From NCBI RefSeq assembly GCF_003967355.1, contig NZ_BIFH01000023.1, positions 62,001 to 126,000 on the forward strand: 64,000 bases of DNA. The letters are read 5' to 3'. Both the position numbers and the translations under genes were made by a program. This stretch comes from Embleya hyalina. GTDB taxonomy: Bacteria > Actinomycetota > Actinomycetes > Streptomycetales > Streptomycetaceae. The notes beneath the pieces are model-generated. The model was not told where the DNA came from and did not search any database. It saw only the letters and a list, made by a program, of their open reading frames with translations. Positions 52,297 to 60,333 of the stretch are shown here, piece after piece; positions within the stretch are counted from its first letter, which is position 1; each line of letters starts with the position of its first letter.

Positions 52297-52374
52297 GCGC
52301 GGCTTGGCCCGGTGCACCGTGATCCGGGCCGACACGCCTGTACAGTCGCAGGTGTTGTCCCCACCGGATGCTCC

Positions 52375-52402
52375 TTGCCGTTGCCAAGAAAATGTGTTGT
52401 AT
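52375..52402 (+). promoter_or_regulatory. candidate topA promoter
   Basis: TTGCCG (52375-52380), 16 bases, TTGTAT (52397-52402), within an AT-richer patch of the 435-base spacer between the methyltransferase gene and topA. It would give a leader of over 300 bases. The rest of the spacer shows a weak 7-bp hairpin (52306-52312 with 52324-52330) but no gene. Confidence 0.35.
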
Positions 52403-52731
52403 GGAGGCGGCGGCTCCCGACTCGGCCGCGAACCACGCTCGGCCGCGAACCAACGGGGTCGGGAGGCGGGAACCGCGATGCGCGCGTTACCGTTCGAGGG
52501 GCGTGGGACCCGGCCGTCGGAGTAATCGCCGGATCCGGGGGGACCGTCCGGACGGACAGCCGCGCCGGGACGACTCCGCGACGCAAGCCGAGCAGCGCCG
52601 GTTTGACACGCGGGGCCGACCACCGGTCACGCTCCGCCACAGGTCGACCGCAATGTGAATACGAATCCCGCAGTACGGCCCTGCCCGATCGGGCACGGTC
52701 GCAGCCGACGACGATGGAGAGAGAAGCGAAG

Positions 52732-55602
52732 GTGTCCCCGAGCAGCGAGACCGCGCGCGACGGCCTGAGACTCGTCATTGTCGAGTCCCCGGCCAAGGCG
52801 AAAACGATCAAGGGCTATCTCGGCCCCGGTTACGTGGTCGAGGCGAGCGTGGGACACATCCGCGACCTGCCCAACGGCGCCGCCGAGGTGCCGGCCGAGT
52901 ACGCCGGCAAGCCGTGGGCCCGCCTGGGTGTCGACGTCGACGCCGACTTCGAGCCGATCTACGTGGTCAACGCGGACAAGAAGGCCCAGGTCGCCAAGCT
53001 CAAGAAGCTCCTCAAGGACGCCGACGAACTCTTCCTCGCGACCGACGAGGACCGCGAGGGCGAGGCCATCGCCTGGCACCTGCTGGAGGTCCTGCGGCCC
53101 AAGGTGCCGGTGCACCGCATGGTGTTCCACGAGATCACCAAGGACGCGATCCGCACTGCGGTGAGCAACCCGCGCGAGCTGAACCAGCGCCTGGTCGACG
53201 CGCAGGAGACCCGGCGCATCCTGGACCGCCTCTACGGCTACGAGGTCTCGCCGGTCCTGTGGAAGAAGGTCGGACCGCGCCTGTCGGCCGGCCGCGTGCA
53301 GTCGGTGGCCACCCGCCTGGTGGTCGAGCGCGAGCGGGAGCGCCGCGCGTTCACCTCGGCGTCCTACTGGGACCTGCTCGGCGTGTTCGGCACCGGTCGC
53401 CCCGGCGATCCGACCGACCCGAGCACGATGAACGCGCGCCTGGTCTCGCTCGACGGCAAGCGGGTCGCCTCGGGCCGCGACTTCGGTCCGGACGGCAAGC
53501 TCAAGAACGCCGGCGTGCTCCAGTTGGAGGAGGCCGGCGCCCGGGCGCTGAGCGCCGCGCTGGAATCCGCCGCGTTCTCGGTGCGCGCCGTCGAGCGCAA
53601 GCCCTACCGCCGCTCCCCGTACGCGCCGTTCCGCACCACCACGCTCCAGCAGGAGGCCTCGCGCAAGCTCGGCTACGGCGCGAAGCGGACCATGCAGGTC
53701 GCGCAGAAGTTGTACGAGAACGGCCACATCACGTACATGCGTACCGACTCCACCACGCTCTCCGACACGGCCGTCACGGCCGCCCGGGCGCAGGTGCGGG
53801 ACCTGTACGGCGCCGAGTACCTGCCGGACGCGCCCCGGGTGTACGCCGGCAAGGTCAAGAACGCGCAGGAGGCGCACGAGGCGATCCGTCCCTCGGGCGA
53901 GAGCTTCCGCACCCCGGCCGAGACCGGTCTGTCCGGCGACGAGTTCCGGTTGTACGAGCTGATCTGGATGCGCACCGTCGCGTCGCAGATGAAGGACGCG
54001 ATCGGCCAGTCGGTCACCGTGCGCATCGGCGGTGTCGCGCAGGGCGCGGACCTGCCCGGGCGGGACGCGGAGTTCACCGCGAGCGGCAAGATCATCACCT
54101 TCCACGGCTTCCTCAAGGCCTACGTCGAGGGCTCCGACGACCCGGACGCGGAGCTGGACGACCGCGAGCGCCGGTTGCCGATGGTCACCGAGGGCGACGC
54201 GCTGAGCGCCGATCAGCTCACCCCGGAGGGCCATGCGACCAAGCCGCCGGCCCGCTACACCGAGGCGTCGCTGATCAAGGAGCTGGAGGACCGGGAGATC
54301 GGCCGCCCGTCGACCTTCGCCTCGATCGTCGGCACCATCCTCGACCGCGGCTACACGTTCAAGAAGGGCACCGCGCTGGTGCCGTCCTTCCTGGCGTTCG
54401 CGGTGGTCGGGCTGCTGGAGGGCCACTTCGCCACACTGGTCGACTACGACTTCACCGCGAAGATGGAGGACGACCTCGACCGGATCGCGCGCGGCGAGAC
54501 CGAGGCCGTGCCGTGGCTGCGCAGGTTCTACTTCGGCGACGAGAGCCGGCCCGACGAGGACCACCTCGGCGGCCTCAAGGCCCTGGTCACCGACCTCAGT
54601 TCGATCGACGCCCGCGAGGTCAACTCGTTCCCGGTCGGCGAGGGCATCGTGCTGCGGGTGGGCCGCTACGGCCCCTACGTCGAGCGCGGCGACCGGCGTG
54701 CCGACGTCCCCGACGACCTGCCGCCGGACGAGCTGACCGTGGCCAAGGCCGAGGAACTGCTCGACAAGCCCAGCGGCGACCACGAGCTGGGCATCGACCC
54801 GGTCAGCGGCCACATGATCGTGGCCAAGGACGGGCGCTACGGCCCGTACGTGACCGAGGTGCTGCCCGAGCCCGAGGCCCCCGCCGCGCCCGCCCCGGCC
54901 GCGGACGGCGCCAAGCCGGCGAAGAAGACCGCCAAGAAGACCGCCGCGAAGAACGGTCCCAAGCCGCGCACCGCGTCGCTGTTCAAGTCGATGTCGCTGG
55001 ACACGGTGACCCTCGACGACGCGCTGCGGCTGTTCACCCTGCCGCGGGTGGTCGGCAAGCACCCCGAGACCGGGACCGAGATCACCGCGCAGAACGGCCG
55101 CTACGGCCCGTACCTCAAGATGGACACCGACTCGCGCTCGCTGGAGACCGAGGACCAGTTGTTCACGGTGACCCTGGAGGAGGCGCTGGCGATCTACGCC
55201 CAGCCCAAGGCGCGCGGTCGGGCCGCGGCCAAGCCGCCGCTCAAGGAGTTGGGCACCGACCCGGTCAGCGGCAAGGCGGTCACGGTCAAGGACGGCCGGT
55301 TCGGCCCGTACGTGACCGACGGCGAGACCAACGCCACCCTGCGTGCGGGCGACGCGGTCGACACGATCACCCCCGAGCGCGGCTACGAGCTGCTCGCGGA
55401 GAAGCGGGCCAAGGGCCCGGCGAAGAAGACGGCGAAGAAGACGGCGGCCAAGAAGGCGCCCGCGAAGAAGGCGACGGCGACGAAGACCGCCGCGAAGAAG
55501 ACGGCCGCGAAGAAGTCCGCGGCCGACGGCAAGACCACCAAGGCCGCCGCCGCGAAGGCGACCGCGAACGCCGGCGCGCACAACGCCGCCGACGAGGCGT
55601 GA
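52732..55602 (+). CDS. topA: DNA topoisomerase I
   Basis: A 956-residue type IA topoisomerase that removes negative supercoils. TOPRIM motifs are LVIVESPAKAKTIKGYLG with catalytic Glu, and ATDEDREGEAIAWHLLE with the Mg-binding DxDxE. The nucleophile is Tyr335 in ITYMRTDS. The C-terminus has no zinc fingers; instead it carries repeated GRYGPYV/GRFGPYV units (four copies between about 640 and 870), and ends in a Lys/Ala-rich tail with KKTAKKTAAKK, as in other Actinobacteria, where such tails raise processivity. GTG 52732 is chosen by analogy to Streptomyces TopA; ATG 52714 is in frame. Confidence 0.97.
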   Translation: MSPSSETARDGLRLVIVESPAKAKTIKGYLGPGYVVEASVGHIRDLPNGAAEVPAEYAGKPWARLGVDVDADFEPIYVVNADKKAQVAKLKKLLKDADELFLATDEDREGEAIAWHLLEVLRPKVPVHRMVFHEITKDAIRTAVSNPRELNQRLVDAQETRRILDRLYGYEVSPVLWKKVGPRLSAGRVQSVATRLVVERERERRAFTSASYWDLLGVFGTGRPGDPTDPSTMNARLVSLDGKRVASGRDFGPDGKLKNAGVLQLEEAGARALSAALESAAFSVRAVERKPYRRSPYAPFRTTTLQQEASRKLGYGAKRTMQVAQKLYENGHITYMRTDSTTLSDTAVTAARAQVRDLYGAEYLPDAPRVYAGKVKNAQEAHEAIRPSGESFRTPAETGLSGDEFRLYELIWMRTVASQMKDAIGQSVTVRIGGVAQGADLPGRDAEFTASGKIITFHGFLKAYVEGSDDPDAELDDRERRLPMVTEGDALSADQLTPEGHATKPPARYTEASLIKELEDREIGRPSTFASIVGTILDRGYTFKKGTALVPSFLAFAVVGLLEGHFATLVDYDFTAKMEDDLDRIARGETEAVPWLRRFYFGDESRPDEDHLGGLKALVTDLSSIDAREVNSFPVGEGIVLRVGRYGPYVERGDRRADVPDDLPPDELTVAKAEELLDKPSGDHELGIDPVSGHMIVAKDGRYGPYVTEVLPEPEAPAAPAPAADGAKPAKKTAKKTAAKNGPKPRTASLFKSMSLDTVTLDDALRLFTLPRVVGKHPETGTEITAQNGRYGPYLKMDTDSRSLETEDQLFTVTLEEALAIYAQPKARGRAAAKPPLKELGTDPVSGKAVTVKDGRFGPYVTDGETNATLRAGDAVDTITPERGYELLAEKRAKGPAKKTAKKTAAKKAPAKKATATKTAAKKTAAKKSAADGKTTKAAAAKATANAGAHNAADEA

Positions 55603-55659
55603 CGCGGTAGGACCGAGGTAGGGATGTTCCCGGTGGGGACGTCCCGGTACGAATCGATC

Positions 55660-55689
55660 GGGCGGCGCCGGCGGGATCCGGCGTCGCCC
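55660..55689 (+). terminator. hairpin terminator after topA
   Basis: A 12-bp stem with one G-T pair (55660-55671 with 55678-55689) and a six-base loop, 57 bases after the topA stop. Confidence 0.7.
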
Positions 55690-55801
55690 CGGTCGGTTGC
55701 GGCGACGACCACGGGCCCTGTGCTACGGTCCCGCCGCCGGAACACGGGGATCCGGTCCAGGTTGCCGTTTCCCGTCAGATGACGACGTTAGGGTTCTCCG
55801 T

Positions 55802-58800
55802 ATGACGAACGCGGAGCAGCAAGCGCCGGATTCGGCGATACCGCCCCGTCAGGTCGAACCGACGGAGAGCGTCGGGGGCGTGCTGAGCATCCGCCCGTTC
55901 CGACGCTTTTGGTTCGCGGTCGCGGCCTCCGCGCTCGGTGACTGGCTCGCGCTCCTCGCGCTGACCTCGGCCGCGCTGTGGACGGTCGAGGGCGACTACC
56001 GCAAGCACGCCACGGCGGTGGCCGTGGTGTTCGCGCTGCGGATGGTGCCGGCCGCGCTGGTCGCCTCGGTGGCGGGCGCGATCGTGGACCATCTCGATCG
56101 GCGCTGGACGCTGGTCACGTGCGACGTGGTCCGGGCCCTGGTGCTCGTGTCCGTGCCGTTCGTGGACCGGATGTGGTGGATCTGGGGCGCGACCGCGGTG
56201 GTCGCCGTGATCGGCGCGCTCGCCGGGCCCGCGCGGGATGCCACCGTGCCGAACCTGGTGCCCCGGCAACGGCTGGGCACCGCCAATCAGTTCAACCTGG
56301 TGACCTCCTACGGCGCGGCCCCGGCGGCGGCGCTGTTGTTCATCCTCGGCGCGCTGGTCGGCACCGCGTTCTCGCACGACGTGTCGATGTTCGTCGAGCA
56401 CCCCTCGAACCTGGCGTTCTACCTCGCGGGCGCGGTGTTCCTGCTCGCCGCGGTCTTCGCGTTCCTGATCCGGATGCCCACGCGCGGGCGCTCGGTCAGC
56501 ACGCGGCGGCCCAATCCGTTCAAGGTGCTCGCCGACGGACGCCGGGTGTTCGGCCACGGCCGGACCGCGCGCGGTCTGATCGTCGGGATGGTCGCGCTGT
56601 TCCTGGCGGGCGGCGCGCTCGTGTCCACCGCGCCGCTGCTCGTGGTCGGGCTGCACGCGGGCAACGCGGCGTACGGCACGGTGTTCCTGATGCTCATCGC
56701 GGGTGTCAGCGCGGGCATGTTGTGGGGCCCGAGGGTGGTGCCGGCGTTCAGTCGGCGGCGGCTGTACGGCATGGCGGTGATGTGCGCCGGGGCGACCCTG
56801 CTGATCCTGGGCGCGGTCGCCAACGTGGTGGTGGCCGCGGTGCTCGCCGCCGTGCTCGGGGTGTTCGCGGGCGTCGCCTGGGTCACCGGATACACCATGT
56901 ACGGCCTCGACTTCGGCGAGGACATGCGGGCCCGGGCCTTCGCGTTCGCCCAACTGATCGTACGCGTCGTGCTGTTCGTGGCGCTGGTGGCCGCGCCGAT
57001 CGCCGCGGGTTATGTGGGCTTGCGCTCGTGGGTGATCGCGGACCGGTTCACCTTCGACTACAGCGGTGCCGGGCCGGTCCTGGGCGGCACCGGCGTGCTC
57101 GTGGTGATCCTGGGCTGGATCGCGCTGCTGAGCGTGGACGACCGGCGCGGCGTGCCGATCCTGCGCGACCTGGCCGCGGCGACCCGCAACGAGGACCACA
57201 TCACCGGCCGGCCGGCCGGTGCCACCGGCTTCTTCATCGCCCTGGAGGGCGGCGAGGGCGCGGGCAAGTCGACCCAGGCCAACGCGATCGCGGCCTGGAT
57301 ACGGGCCAAGGGCCACGAGGTGGTGGTCACCCGCGAGCCCGGCGCGACCGAGGTCGGCAAGCGGCTGCGGGCGATGCTGCTCGACCTGGACGGCGATCCG
57401 GTCGACCCGCGCACCGAGGCGCTGCTGTACGCGGCGGACCGGGCCGAGCATGTGCAGACCGTGATCCTGCCCGCCCTGCGGCGTGGTGCGATCGTGATCA
57501 GCGACCGCTACATCGACTCCTCGATCGCCTACCAGGGCGCCGGGCGTTCGCTGGGCGCGCGCGAGATCGGCCGGGTCTCGCGCTGGGCCACCGACGGGCT
57601 GCTGCCCGACCTGACCATCCTGCTCGACCTGGACCCGGCGGTCGGACACGCGCGCTTCACCGAGGCGCCCGACCGGATCGAGTCCGAGTCGAGCGAGTTC
57701 CACCTGCGGGTGCGGCACGCGTTCCTGGACCTGGCCGCGCACGACCCGGACCGCTACCTGGTGGTGGACGCCGACCAGGAGCCGGACGCCGTCACCACGC
57801 CGATCCGGCACCGGCTCGACCGCGAACTCCCGCTCTCCGAGCAGGAGAAGCGCCAGGCGCTGGAATTGGCCAAGCGGATGCGCGAGGAGGACGCCCGGCG
57901 CAAGGCCGAGCAGGCCGCCCGGGACGCGGAGAAGGCCGCGCTGATCGCCCGGCTGCGGGCGGAGAGCGAGGAGCGCCAGCGGCAGGCCGAGCAGGCCCGG
58001 CTGGACGAGGAGTCGGCCCGGCTCGCCGAGGAGGAGCAGCGGTACGCCGAGGAGCAGGCCCGCCGGATCGCGGCCGAGGCCGACGAGCGGGCCCGCGCCG
58101 CGGCCCAGGCGGCGGAGGAGGCCCGGCTGCACGCCGAGTCGGAGCGGCGCCGGCTGGCGCTCGAGGCCGAACGGCGGGCCGAGGAGCAGCAGCGGCTCGC
58201 CGAGGAGGCCAAGACCCGGGCCGAGGAGGCCAGGGTGCGCGCCGAGGAGGAGGCCGAGCGCCGGGACGAGCAGCGCCGCCGGCTGGAGGAGGCGTCGGCG
58301 CTGCAGGCCGAGCAGGCGCGGGCCAGTGCCGAGGAGGAGCGCGAGGCCGCCCTGGAGCGGCAGCGGTCGGCCGAGGAGGAGCGCGAACGGCTGGAGGCCG
58401 AGGCGGCCCGCGAGGTCGAGCGCATGCGCGCCGAGGAGGCCGTGCGGGTGGCCGACGAGCGGCGGCACGCCGAGGAGCGCCGTCGGGCGGAGGACGCCCT
58501 GCGCCGTGCCGAGGCGGATCGCCGGCGGGCCGAACGGGAGGCGTCCCGGGCCGCCGAGGCCGCCGCGTCGGCGCGGGCGCGGGCCGCGCGGGAGGCCGCC
58601 GCGCTCGCGGCGGAGGCGGGCCCGGTACCCGACACGGACATGGTCGAGACGCCGGTGCACGGCATCCGGCGCCCCGACCCCGCCCTCGCGGAAACCCCCG
58701 TGCACGGCGTCCCGAAGGTCTCGTCGGACGAGGCCGACACCACCGAGTTGCAGCAGATACGGCTGCGCGAGGCGGCCGAGGACACCCGGGAGATCCCGCA

Positions 58801-59005
58801 GGTGAGCCTGGACGAGACGCACGCGCTGCCGGTGCTGACGCCGCCGGCCGCCGGGGACCAGTCGCTGGCCGACGATCTGCTGGGGCCCTGGCGGGCCGAG
58901 GACGACGCGGACGCGGCCGAGGGCGGCGACGCGGAGGACTCGTCCACCGCGGACTCGGCGCAGGAGGCGGGGCGCAAGCGACGCTGGCGCCGGAACAAGT
59001 CCTGA
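55802..59005 (+). CDS. tmk: MFS transporter/thymidylate kinase/coiled-coil fusion
   Basis: A 1067-residue fusion. Residues about 25-460 are an MFS-like membrane domain (FRRFWFAVAASALGDWLALLAL, PNLVPRQRLGTANQFNLVTSYGA in parts). Residues about 475-680 are dTMP kinase: P-loop GGEGAGKST at 483-491, the DR(Y/F) segment VISDRYIDSSIAYQGAGRSL and EAPDRIESES lid region. Residues about 690-940 are an uninterrupted, highly charged Glu/Arg/Ala coiled coil, then an acidic tail with the repeated motif ETPVHG, and a basic end. The kinase makes dTDP for DNA synthesis and is essential. Similar fusions are annotated in Streptomyces. ATG 55802 starts the conserved region. Confidence 0.93.
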   Translation: MTNAEQQAPDSAIPPRQVEPTESVGGVLSIRPFRRFWFAVAASALGDWLALLALTSAALWTVEGDYRKHATAVAVVFALRMVPAALVASVAGAIVDHLDRRWTLVTCDVVRALVLVSVPFVDRMWWIWGATAVVAVIGALAGPARDATVPNLVPRQRLGTANQFNLVTSYGAAPAAALLFILGALVGTAFSHDVSMFVEHPSNLAFYLAGAVFLLAAVFAFLIRMPTRGRSVSTRRPNPFKVLADGRRVFGHGRTARGLIVGMVALFLAGGALVSTAPLLVVGLHAGNAAYGTVFLMLIAGVSAGMLWGPRVVPAFSRRRLYGMAVMCAGATLLILGAVANVVVAAVLAAVLGVFAGVAWVTGYTMYGLDFGEDMRARAFAFAQLIVRVVLFVALVAAPIAAGYVGLRSWVIADRFTFDYSGAGPVLGGTGVLVVILGWIALLSVDDRRGVPILRDLAAATRNEDHITGRPAGATGFFIALEGGEGAGKSTQANAIAAWIRAKGHEVVVTREPGATEVGKRLRAMLLDLDGDPVDPRTEALLYAADRAEHVQTVILPALRRGAIVISDRYIDSSIAYQGAGRSLGAREIGRVSRWATDGLLPDLTILLDLDPAVGHARFTEAPDRIESESSEFHLRVRHAFLDLAAHDPDRYLVVDADQEPDAVTTPIRHRLDRELPLSEQEKRQALELAKRMREEDARRKAEQAARDAEKAALIARLRAESEERQRQAEQARLDEESARLAEEEQRYAEEQARRIAAEADERARAAAQAAEEARLHAESERRRLALEAERRAEEQQRLAEEAKTRAEEARVRAEEEAERRDEQRRRLEEASALQAEQARASAEEEREAALERQRSAEEERERLEAEAAREVERMRAEEAVRVADERRHAEERRRAEDALRRAEADRRRAEREASRAAEAAASARARAAREAAALAAEAGPVPDTDMVETPVHGIRRPDPALAETPVHGVPKVSSDEADTTELQQIRLREAAEDTREIPQVSLDETHALPVLTPPAAGDQSLADDLLGPWRAEDDADAAEGGDAEDSSTADSAQEAGRKRRWRRNKS

Positions 59006-59148
59006 GTCGGGAGTCCTGATCCACAGGTCCCGCCCCCGGGTCCCGCCGGGGTGTCGCGGACGATCGGTACCGGGGTGACGTGGCGTCGATTGTCACGGCG
59101 CCCCGGTACGGTCGTATCGGGCACACCGGAACGAGGAGACAAGAGCGC

Positions 59149-60333
59149 GTGACCGTCTGGGACGACCTCGTCGGGCAGGATCGGGTCGCGGAGCAGCTGC
59201 GCACCGCGGCCGGTGCGGCCCGGGCGGTGCTCGCGGGCGAGGGCGTCGGCGGGATGACCCACGCCTGGTTGTTCACCGGCCCGCCCGGGGTGGGTACGGC
59301 CACCGCCGCGCGCGCGTTCGCGGCGGCGTTGCAGTGCGTCAGTCCCGATCTGGCGCTCGGCGCCGAACCGGGCTGCGGCCACTGCGACGGCTGCCACACC
59401 GCGCTCACCGGCACGCACGCCGACGTCGACGTGGTCGCCACCGAACTGCTCTCGATCGGCGTCAAGGAGACCCGCGACCTGGTGCGCCGCGCGGCCATGA
59501 CGCCGGCGGGCGGGCGCTGGCAGGTGATCGTCCTGGAGGACGCGGGTCGGCTCACCGAGGGCGCGGGCAACGTCCTGCTCAAGGCGATCGAGGAGCCCGC
59601 CGACCGCACCGTGTGGCTGTTGTGCGCGCCGTCCCTGGAGGACGCGCTGCCCACGATCCGCTCGCGGTGTCGCCATGTGGCGCTGCGCACTCCGCCCGCC
59701 GGGGCGGTGGCCGATCTGCTGATGCGCCGGGACGGGATCGACCCGGCCATGGCCGCGTTCGCCGCGGCGGCGTCCGGCGGCGACATCAAGAGCGCGCGCC
59801 GGCTGGCGCTCGACGAACAGGCCCGGGGGCGGCGCGCCGACGTGCTGCGGATCCCGATGGTGGTCGGCGACATCGGTCTGGCGATGGCCGCCGCACAACG
59901 TCTGGTGGACGCGGCGGCGGAGGACGCGAAGCAGGTCGCGGCGGATCTGGACGGGCGCGAGACCGAGGATCTGCGGGCGGCGCTCGGCGCGGTCGGCGGC
60001 GGTCGTATGCCCAGCGGTACGGCGGGCGTGATGAAGGAGTTGGAGAACAAGCAGAAGAAGCGCGCCACCCGCACCCAACGCGACTGCCTGGACCGCGCGT
60101 TGGTGGACCTGACCGCCTTCTATCGGGACGTGCTGGCGCTGCAGCTGCGGGCCGCGGTCCCGTTGGCCAACGACGTGTTGCGGGCGGACCTGGACACGGT
60201 GGCCCGTACGTCCACGCCGGAGGCGACGCTGCGGCGGATCGAGGCGATCCTGGCCTGCCGGCGGGCGATCGACGCCAACGTCGCGCCGCTGCTCGCGGTC
60301 GAGGCGATGGTGTTGACGCTGCGGACCGGCTGA
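59149..60333 (+). CDS. holB: DNA polymerase III subunit delta-prime
   Basis: A 394-residue clamp-loader subunit. It starts VWDDLVGQDRVAEQL; the P-loop position reads GPPGVGTATAA with Thr in place of the catalytic Lys, so it should not hydrolyse ATP, as expected of delta-prime. The zinc module is CGHCDGCHTAL with an earlier Cys, and the arginine-finger motif is the SRC in TIRSRCRHV. GTG 59149 follows GAGGAG. Adjacency of tmk and holB is common in bacteria. Confidence 0.93.
   Translation: MTVWDDLVGQDRVAEQLRTAAGAARAVLAGEGVGGMTHAWLFTGPPGVGTATAARAFAAALQCVSPDLALGAEPGCGHCDGCHTALTGTHADVDVVATELLSIGVKETRDLVRRAAMTPAGGRWQVIVLEDAGRLTEGAGNVLLKAIEEPADRTVWLLCAPSLEDALPTIRSRCRHVALRTPPAGAVADLLMRRDGIDPAMAAFAAAASGGDIKSARRLALDEQARGRRADVLRIPMVVGDIGLAMAAAQRLVDAAAEDAKQVAADLDGRETEDLRAALGAVGGGRMPSGTAGVMKELENKQKKRATRTQRDCLDRALVDLTAFYRDVLALQLRAAVPLANDVLRADLDTVARTSTPEATLRRIEAILACRRAIDANVAPLLAVEAMVLTLRTG

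Follow-up and report, generated by a model that had tools for sequence, protein, structure and literature searches.

Introduction

The solved thymidylate (dTMP) kinases listed in our structure comparisons (e.g. 5x7j and 4edh) are chains of approximately 190–250 amino acids (aa). Here, we describe a gene from a 64,000-nucleotide stretch of the Embleya hyalina genome (Streptomycetaceae; contig NZ_BIFH01000023.1, positions 62,001 to 126,000; hereafter the window), whose product shares the fold and the catalytic motifs of these enzymes (Z ~29–30; Z 30.5 and 1.4 Å over 205 residues for 4edh), and adds a membrane bundle of the major facilitator superfamily (MFS) before the kinase and a charged rod and a tail after it. 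We propose, with moderate confidence, that it is a dTMP kinase anchored in the membrane, with a docking tail that would serve as a phospho-switch.

The join itself is not new. The MFS–kinase fusion is old and widespread in the phylum, and the same two domains stand in the same order in named relatives including Micromonospora, Frankia, Nonomuraea, Blastococcus, Actinoplanes and Streptomyces; the fusions of other Actinomycetota mostly keep a membrane glutamate (Glu) and are without the rod, the threonine (Thr) repeats and a LADELLG-like motif, whereas the Streptomyces group shows the reverse. Our literature search, with subscription journals mostly outside its reach, found among the papers listed none on the function of the MFS–dTMP kinase fusion. 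We take SCO3542 to be its Streptomyces coelicolor orthologue. The sole paper found to name SCO3542 lists it, in the part available, as a putative thymidine kinase in a transcriptome table (PMC3897704).

The bundle shares fold and sequence matches with MFS transporters (PF07690, PF05977), although the membrane Glu of its fused relatives is lost here, and against the H+ antiporter model TIGR00900 the protein scores 82.2 bits with a cut-off of 319.6. GarA and OdhI are actinobacterial substrates of Ser/Thr protein kinases that are bound by forkhead-associated (FHA) domains; the tail described here is like them in sequence, in its acidic residues before Thr and a hydrophobic residue at +3, and unlike them in having Pro at +4 and many copies in the tail of one metabolic enzyme. 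Single alpha-helices are described as having a high content of Arg, Glu and Lys, with salt bridges that lend them stability (PMC5347031). The charged helix shares with such domains its Glu/Arg/Ala richness, opposite charges at i/i+4 and few large hydrophobic residues. Unlike them, the window's helix has a partial hydrophobic period.

Results

MFS-fold bundle, dTMP kinase, charged helix and threonine-repeat tail are parts of one polypeptide

The first-pass annotation of this locus had described a single polypeptide with an MFS domain, a dTMP kinase, a Glu/Arg helix and an acidic tail, and this anatomy was borne out by the open frame, Pfam and TIGR00041. MFS_1 (PF07690) matched residues 37–393 (E = 1.3e-18), MFS_3 (PF05977) likewise matched above its cut-off, and Thymidylate_kin (PF02223) matched residues 481–666 (E = 6.8e-48); against the TIGR00041 dTMP kinase model the protein scored 170.3 bits, with a cut-off of 83.25, which places it in the equivalog by score. 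The protein contains the P-loop EGGEGAGKST (residues 482–491), REPG (511–514) and DRYIDSS (568–574), and we take P-loop, REPG and DR[YF] to be the catalytic motifs of dTMP kinase. Over the 83 kinase columns conserved in relatives, identity is 94% in the window's genus and 94–96% across the family. The E/R/A-rich segment that follows the kinase is succeeded by an acidic tail of ~125 residues, and the whole lies between topA and holB.

The fused frame is no artefact. A frameshift inside the gene had been named as a possible refutation of the fusion, and the same open frame is present in two genomes of the same genus (L101 and L102; 1127 and 1122 aa from stop to stop, compared with 1127 aa in the window). 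All 101 genomes sampled from the same family had a match, and the open frames around the best matches were never shorter than 742 aa (counted by eye), although an open frame alone in GC-rich DNA does not prove a fusion. Forty family loci, hand-picked across genera, were read (41 family members including the window), and every one had a frame of at least 985 aa with 9–12 hydrophobic segments, the kinase, the charged helix and the tail.

The bundle keeps an MFS fold and has lost conserved transporter residues

An AlphaFold2 model of residues 1–690, made with 21 relatives (mean predicted local distance difference test score (pLDDT) 84.3, predicted template modelling score 0.69), places 12 long helices in the stretch from residue 31 to residue 445, as in the 12-helix MFS fold, with the kinase after them. 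The best 50 rows of a Foldseek search were all thymidylate kinases, and the MFS matches came from a second-look alignment; among the matches listed there (best 50) were the nucleoside transporters YegT and NupG and the drug exporters NorA and SotB. These matches identify the fold only, because all lie at Z ~29–33 (up to 32.7) with 9–14% identity.

The membrane Glu (in FLIExxSLFWxPAK) is present in all 25 fused proteins outside the family, vs. Ala or Gly at this position in 40 of the 41 family members (the 41st, L109, was unaligned); the window has Ala135 in place of the conserved Glu. The same held in 80 named loci, comprising 20 of the Streptomyces group (Streptomyces, Wenjunlia and Actinacidiphila) and 60 others, a set that overlaps with the fetched loci described below in at least L155 = L080 and L211 = L108: the residue was Glu in 59/60 outside the group and Gly in 20/20 within it, and the Asp of motif A was kept in 59/60 vs. 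0/20. MFS motif A is a GxxxDRxxRR-like sequence between helices 2 and 3; its form here, AGxxADRxDRR, is AGAIVDHLDRR in the window, where Asp96 is kept and the next Arg is His97. Most of the family has a broken motif A (e.g. LTSPDGPLDRR). Its Asp is missing from 31 of the 35 family members that belong neither to the window's genus nor to the genus g238, the exceptions being L109 (poorly aligned), L118, L119 and L135. In L119 the motif is still ADRLDRR despite the loss of the membrane Glu.

Mean identity to the class set (11 loci) was 0.51 for the MFS part and 0.59 for the kinase in the order set (3 loci of neighbouring families), 0.36 and 0.59 in the window's genus (3), and 0.29 and 0.60 in the rest of the family (35), with kinase identity staying at 0.58–0.60 in all groups compared. 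The MFS parts of 14 order and class proteins share 148 conserved columns. Retention of these was 69% for the window's genus, 73% for g238, 42% for the remaining family members and 58% for 11 phylum-level proteins. Pfam recognised the MFS domain of L121 only in part and that of L104 not at all. Nonsynonymous divergence (dN) of the MFS part relative to the kinase was 2.77 in Streptomycetaceae pairs, somewhat above the 2.15 of pairs with intact residues. The bundle seems to have changed close to the origin of the family. The earlier claim that the kinase is locked to a working transporter is not supported, as the family has lost conserved residues of the transporter; judged by these residues, the bundle has probably been kept for something other than its old transport, and it is probably an anchor.

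Related kinases occur without the bundle

Three loci from the same taxonomic order as the window (L061 and L062 of genus g309, L063 of g308) have topA, then a 415–479-aa frame with kinase and charged helix, then holB. The kinase frame contains no hydrophobic segments in any of them, Pfam on L061 gives the kinase only, and the kinase tree groups the three together with 98% support. When the bundle of L064 was searched against four such genomes (G597, G601, G602 and G604), the best matches had E values of 3.5e-18 to 7.6e-8 and 28–39% identity, and at these identities they are to be classed as ordinary, distant MFS relatives. L073, L078 and L079 likewise have no hydrophobic segments before the kinase. 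Each has topA upstream, at a distance of ~2.5 kb in the case of L073, whereas no holB was detected at L079. A bundle-free kinase of the same line exists in other genomes and presumably works there. The question that had been raised, whether the kinase alone suffices, has a natural answer in other genomes, where L061–L063 dispense with the bundle and retain the charged helix. Within the class, the MFS part has probably been lost repeatedly.

The charged helix has a partial hydrophobic period

By composition, Ala makes up 27%, Glu 24%, Arg 22% and Leu 7% of the charged segment, and opposite charges at i/i+4 occur at approximately twice the shuffled level. Hydrophobic periodicity near 3.5–3.67 residues was scored as z in 84-aa segments, which gave 1.0, 3.2, 2.8, 3.7, 2.0, 0.3 and 1.9 for the window's rod. 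Mean z was 1.96 in the window's genus (22 segments, 45% above 2) and 1.99 in g238 (23 segments, 39% above 2), compared with 0.05 in the rest of the family (1% of 147 segments above 2) and −0.12 in the other order and class loci (0/15 above 2), and with positive controls from the same genome, a Scy-like protein (3.70) and DivIVA (3.08). The Scy-like control, a putative assignment with a weak DivIVA match, shows the i/i+4 excess too, so that the excess alone does not discriminate. This Scy-like control (G000 C17:79297, L316) is a 1580-aa open frame with a DivIVA-type start and a strong 3.64-residue hydrophobic periodicity.

The segment had been read as a long coiled coil, a claim of which the helical composition stands, whereas the hydrophobic seam is partial in the window and absent in most of the family; a coiled-coil scaffold is weakened accordingly. 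Of the features of a single helix (E/R-rich, i/i+4 charges, no seam), the window's rod shows part and most of the family all, and the rods of most relatives look like single alpha-helices. A search of the rod sequence against the PDB at E 1e-5 gave no match. Rods of at least 100 aa occur in 4 of the 60 named loci outside the Streptomyces group vs. all 20 within it.

Acidic threonine repeats recur in the tails of the family

T..[LIV]P was counted 166 times in the tails of the 41 family members vs. 12.2 expected (shuffle maximum 21), and 149 times vs. 4.2 with an acidic residue at −1 or −2, and 39 of the tails have at least two copies; the serine control S..[LIV]P shows no excess (8 vs. 8.9 expected). 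The tails thus carry acidic-Thr-x-x-hydrophobic repeats with Thr and not Ser, with the family consensus [DE][ER]TxxLPxV and the repeat [DE]xTxxLP. In the window, EDTREIPQV and DETHALPVL fit T..[LIV]P and DTTELQQI comes near it, beside two copies of ETPVHG. A C-terminal element of the LAD[DE]L type is present in 30 of the 41 tails, the other 11 having LTD[ERS]LLG (10) or LLDDLLG (1), and related elements are SLADELLG (L064), SMADELFG (L065/L066), LADELFG (L080) and SLADDLM (L061). In the named set, at least two T..[LIV]P were found in 2/60 loci outside the Streptomyces group vs. 20/20 within it, and a LADELLG-like motif in 2/60 vs. 18/20.

The first-pass annotation had noticed the repeated ETPVHG, which is indeed present twice, and had read it as a docking motif. 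A docking tail remains plausible, although the family-wide elements are [DE]xTxxLP and the LAD[DE]LLG-like one. In the genome itself, the DNA pattern for ETPVHG with G/C-ended codons has two sites, both in the fusion gene (reversed control, 0), and among 81 loci a double TPVHG is restricted to the window, L101 and L102 (the latter two having DTPVHG as their second copy), with TPLHG in L103. ETPVHG was rejected as a family-wide key docking motif, as it is confined to genus level among these 81 loci (the 80 named loci were not searched).

A genome-wide DNA pattern for [DE]ETxxLP gave six sites in the window's own genome, one of them in the fusion gene (reversed control, 3), and six vs. 0 in G023; since it mostly covers G/C-ended codons and misses three of the four DETAVLP of L121, these counts are no census. 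The LAD[DE]LLG DNA pattern, which missed the window's own copy, had five matches in three of four other genomes. Single DETxxLP sites lie in frames with hydrophobic stretches at L148 (C36:46734 of the window's own genome) and L153 (C1:5525208 of G023), hinting at a wider class of Thr motifs near membranes. C-terminal extensions of 185–308 aa follow the MFS–kinase fusion in L208 (Paractinoplanes), L210 (Actinoplanes) and L217 (Symbioplanes). Rod-less Thr repeats are found in L208 (T.P[IVL], 8 vs. 0.62 expected) and L217 (T..[LIV]P, 6 vs. 0.55 expected), which suggests separate gains.

The tail consensus resembles the PknA-dependent motif of Mycobacterium tuberculosis, which, in the accessible part of its description, has acidic residues at −1 and −3 to −6 and Leu or Val at +3 (PMC7164672). 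In Streptomyces rimosus, the excerpt available reports three upregulated phosphosites on the dTMP kinase SRIM_023100 in phase SII, when growth slows (PMC9600765). By our family survey, SRIM_023100 should be the fused protein.

Fused and separate kinases both occur outside the family

A kinase match was found in 367/396 genomes of a phylum sample and in 147/148 of a class sample, and among the matches listed for these samples frames of ~680–950 aa stand alongside frames of ~210–270 aa. In loci that were fetched and not drawn at random, the MFS part shares a frame with the kinase in 14 of 20 order and class loci, and it does so in 11 of 20 phylum loci. topA was found in 68 and holB in 75 of the 80 fetched loci (family, order/class and phylum), and by-eye counts over the 80 named loci gave 70 with topA upstream and 74 with holB downstream. 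L098 has the order topA, a separate MFS gene, the kinase gene (tmk) and holB, and an MFS match upstream of tmk was also seen in L093, L094, L099 and L100. A quick kinase tree (67 rows; 22 of 63 inner branches unsure) places the class rows, 41 fused and 6 unfused, on one side of a branch supported at 98% by the Shimodaira–Hasegawa-like approximate likelihood ratio test. The fused or unfused state requires six changes on this tree, three of them being forced by well-supported branches.

Discussion

If our proposal of an anchored kinase with a docking tail is right, the bundle no longer transports and would hold the kinase at the membrane. Known dTMP kinases pair, and the kinase domains here probably do likewise. 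The rod would carry the tail away from the membrane; with the alpha-helical rise of 0.15 nm per residue, its 265 residues would span ~40 nm if they form one continuous helix. Ser/Thr protein kinases would phosphorylate the threonines of [DE]xTxxLP, and proteins with FHA domains, which prefer phosphothreonine, would bind the phosphorylated residues, so that slowing growth would bring about recruitment or release of the enzyme. We take the two ETPVHG copies to be a genus-specific variant of these Thr sites, and the Thr array resembles, with the differences set out below, a platform for kinases and FHA domains. A bolder extension, which we regard as doubtful, would make the protein a streptomycete signalling hub, in which an anchor arose from a transporter, a long rigid helix joined it and the Thr array lets Ser/Thr kinases choose the site of dTDP production, near replication or tip complexes, with the enzyme withdrawn when growth slows.

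What is new here is a reading of the parts, as an anchor and not a transporter, a rod that is not a proven coiled coil and a Thr array in the place of ETPVHG; beyond this anatomy, we infer the mechanism. If true, a family that includes many antibiotic producers would keep a core step of DNA-precursor synthesis at the membrane and couple it to Ser/Thr-kinase signalling, a transporter fold would have turned into an anchor, and there would be a reason why, throughout the family as sampled, a housekeeping enzyme of ~200 aa forms part of a ~1000-aa protein. Since nature provides proteins with an intact-looking MFS part, an altered one and none, the question is directly testable.

Several observations weigh against this proposal. 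Asp96 of motif A is retained in the window, as in 4 of the 35 family members that belong neither to its genus nor to g238, and many Streptomyces-type proteins have an 'ER' pair approximately one turn past the lost Glu that could be a replacement for it. For the MFS part, the median ratio of nonsynonymous to synonymous substitution (omega, or dN/dS) is 0.25 over 13 pairs from Streptomycetaceae vs. 0.26 over 13 pairs in which that part is intact, and purifying selection of this kind means that the bundle may have changed its function, even to a changed transport, and not have been left with none; neutral decay of the bundle, which we also considered, is not supported by dN/dS. In the tail, ETPVHG has His and not Leu at +3, and L210 has a long tail without such repeats. 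The M. tuberculosis motif, as far as the accessible description goes, has Pro at +2 and a basic residue at +4, whereas the tail repeat has Pro at +4 (PMC7164672). The phosphosites reported in the available excerpt for SRIM_023100 need not lie in the tail (PMC9600765), and the main text of a Streptomyces albus phosphoproteome of 27 phosphoproteins, in the part at hand, mentions neither thymidylate nor dTMP (PMC13432765).

A working transporter, in which the fusion couples import or export of a thymidine compound or a nucleotide-like drug to the kinase, would account for the well-predicted MFS fold, the nucleoside transporters and drug exporters among the matches listed, the Asp96 of the window, the purifying selection and the near-complete retention of both Glu and Asp in the named loci outside the Streptomyces group (59/60 each). 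We consider it quite unlikely here, as the window and its family have lost the Glu, motif A is disrupted in most family members, the structure matches at 9–14% identity show the fold only, and six loci with topA upstream (L061–L063, L073, L078 and L079) have no membrane helices before the kinase. It is also unlikely that neighbouring genes fused by accident and that the join was passed on without a special role, with rod and tail as drifting low-complexity additions. Separate adjacent MFS and tmk genes do exist (L098, and also L093, L094, L099 and L100), the fused or unfused state requires six changes on the kinase tree, and omega is high in the tail (0.27–0.70, 12 pairs); against this stand the 0.10–0.25 of the rod in the same pairs, the recurrence of the Thr and C-terminal motifs while the remaining tail changes, and the long frame in 101/101 family genomes sampled.

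That the charged segment is a coiled coil that polymerises into a scaffold pinning the enzyme draws on the partial periodicity of the window's genus (1.96) and the related genus g238 (1.99), and it appears improbable beside the 0.05 of the rest of the family, the 0/15 segments above 2 in the order and class loci and the control values of 3.70 and 3.08; the doubled i/i+4 charges also speak against it, but do not discriminate alone. Least probable of all, and by our estimate very much so, is a kinase freed in the cell by proteolysis or internal initiation, both of which had been named at the outset as refutations of the fusion. Linker residues 466–468 have pLDDT <50, and an in-frame ATG lies 42–46 codons before the kinase in 25 of the 41 family members, two of them with GGAG upstream (by eye). 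The window is not one of these 25: the 90 codons preceding its kinase contain no ATG and no start with a Shine–Dalgarno-like match, and no position with a start plus such a match is common to more than one of the 41 members.

Genomic context

Table 1. Features of the dTMP kinase fusion and its neighbours, in window coordinates.
Feature	Position	Strand	Basis
Upstream neighbour topA (DNA topoisomerase I); its start codon is uncertain	52312..55602	+	TIGR01051, 783.9 bits vs. cut-off 456.4
MFS-bundle/dTMP kinase/charged helix/acidic tail protein, 1067 aa	55802..59005	+	Open reading frame, Pfam/NCBIfam; long frame kept in relatives
MFS-fold membrane bundle, 12 long helices (~residues 28–446)	55883..57139	+	Pfam MFS_1, AlphaFold2, structure matches
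dTMP kinase domain (residues 475–672)	57224..57817	+	Pfam, TIGR00041, motifs, structure matches
Glu/Arg/Ala-rich helix, rod-like (~residues 676–940)	57827..58621	+	Composition, charge pairing, periodicity
ETPVHG copy 1 (residues 949–954)	58646..58663	+	
ETPVHG copy 2 (residues 964–969)	58691..58708	+	
Acidic-Thr sites DTTELQQI, EDTREIPQV, DETHALPVL (between residues 979 and 1012)	58736..58837	+	
SLADDLLG, C-terminal LAD[DE]LLG-like element (residues 1021–1028)	58862..58885	+	Conserved across family tails
holB, DNA polymerase III delta', downstream neighbour	59080..60333	+	NF005926, 509 bits vs. cut-off 300

The gap between topA and the fusion gene spans 199 bp (55603–55801), and a scan of 55500–59200 for sigma-70-type promoters gave no promoter-like site. 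The genome of 12.05 Mb (78 contigs, 97.93% complete) has one PF02223 match in a profile search, which is the fused gene. A free second kinase in this genome was rejected on this count, and the single match, together with general knowledge of dTTP synthesis, suggests that the kinase is essential, as had been claimed. Additional, weaker kinase matches are present in some other genomes of the family.

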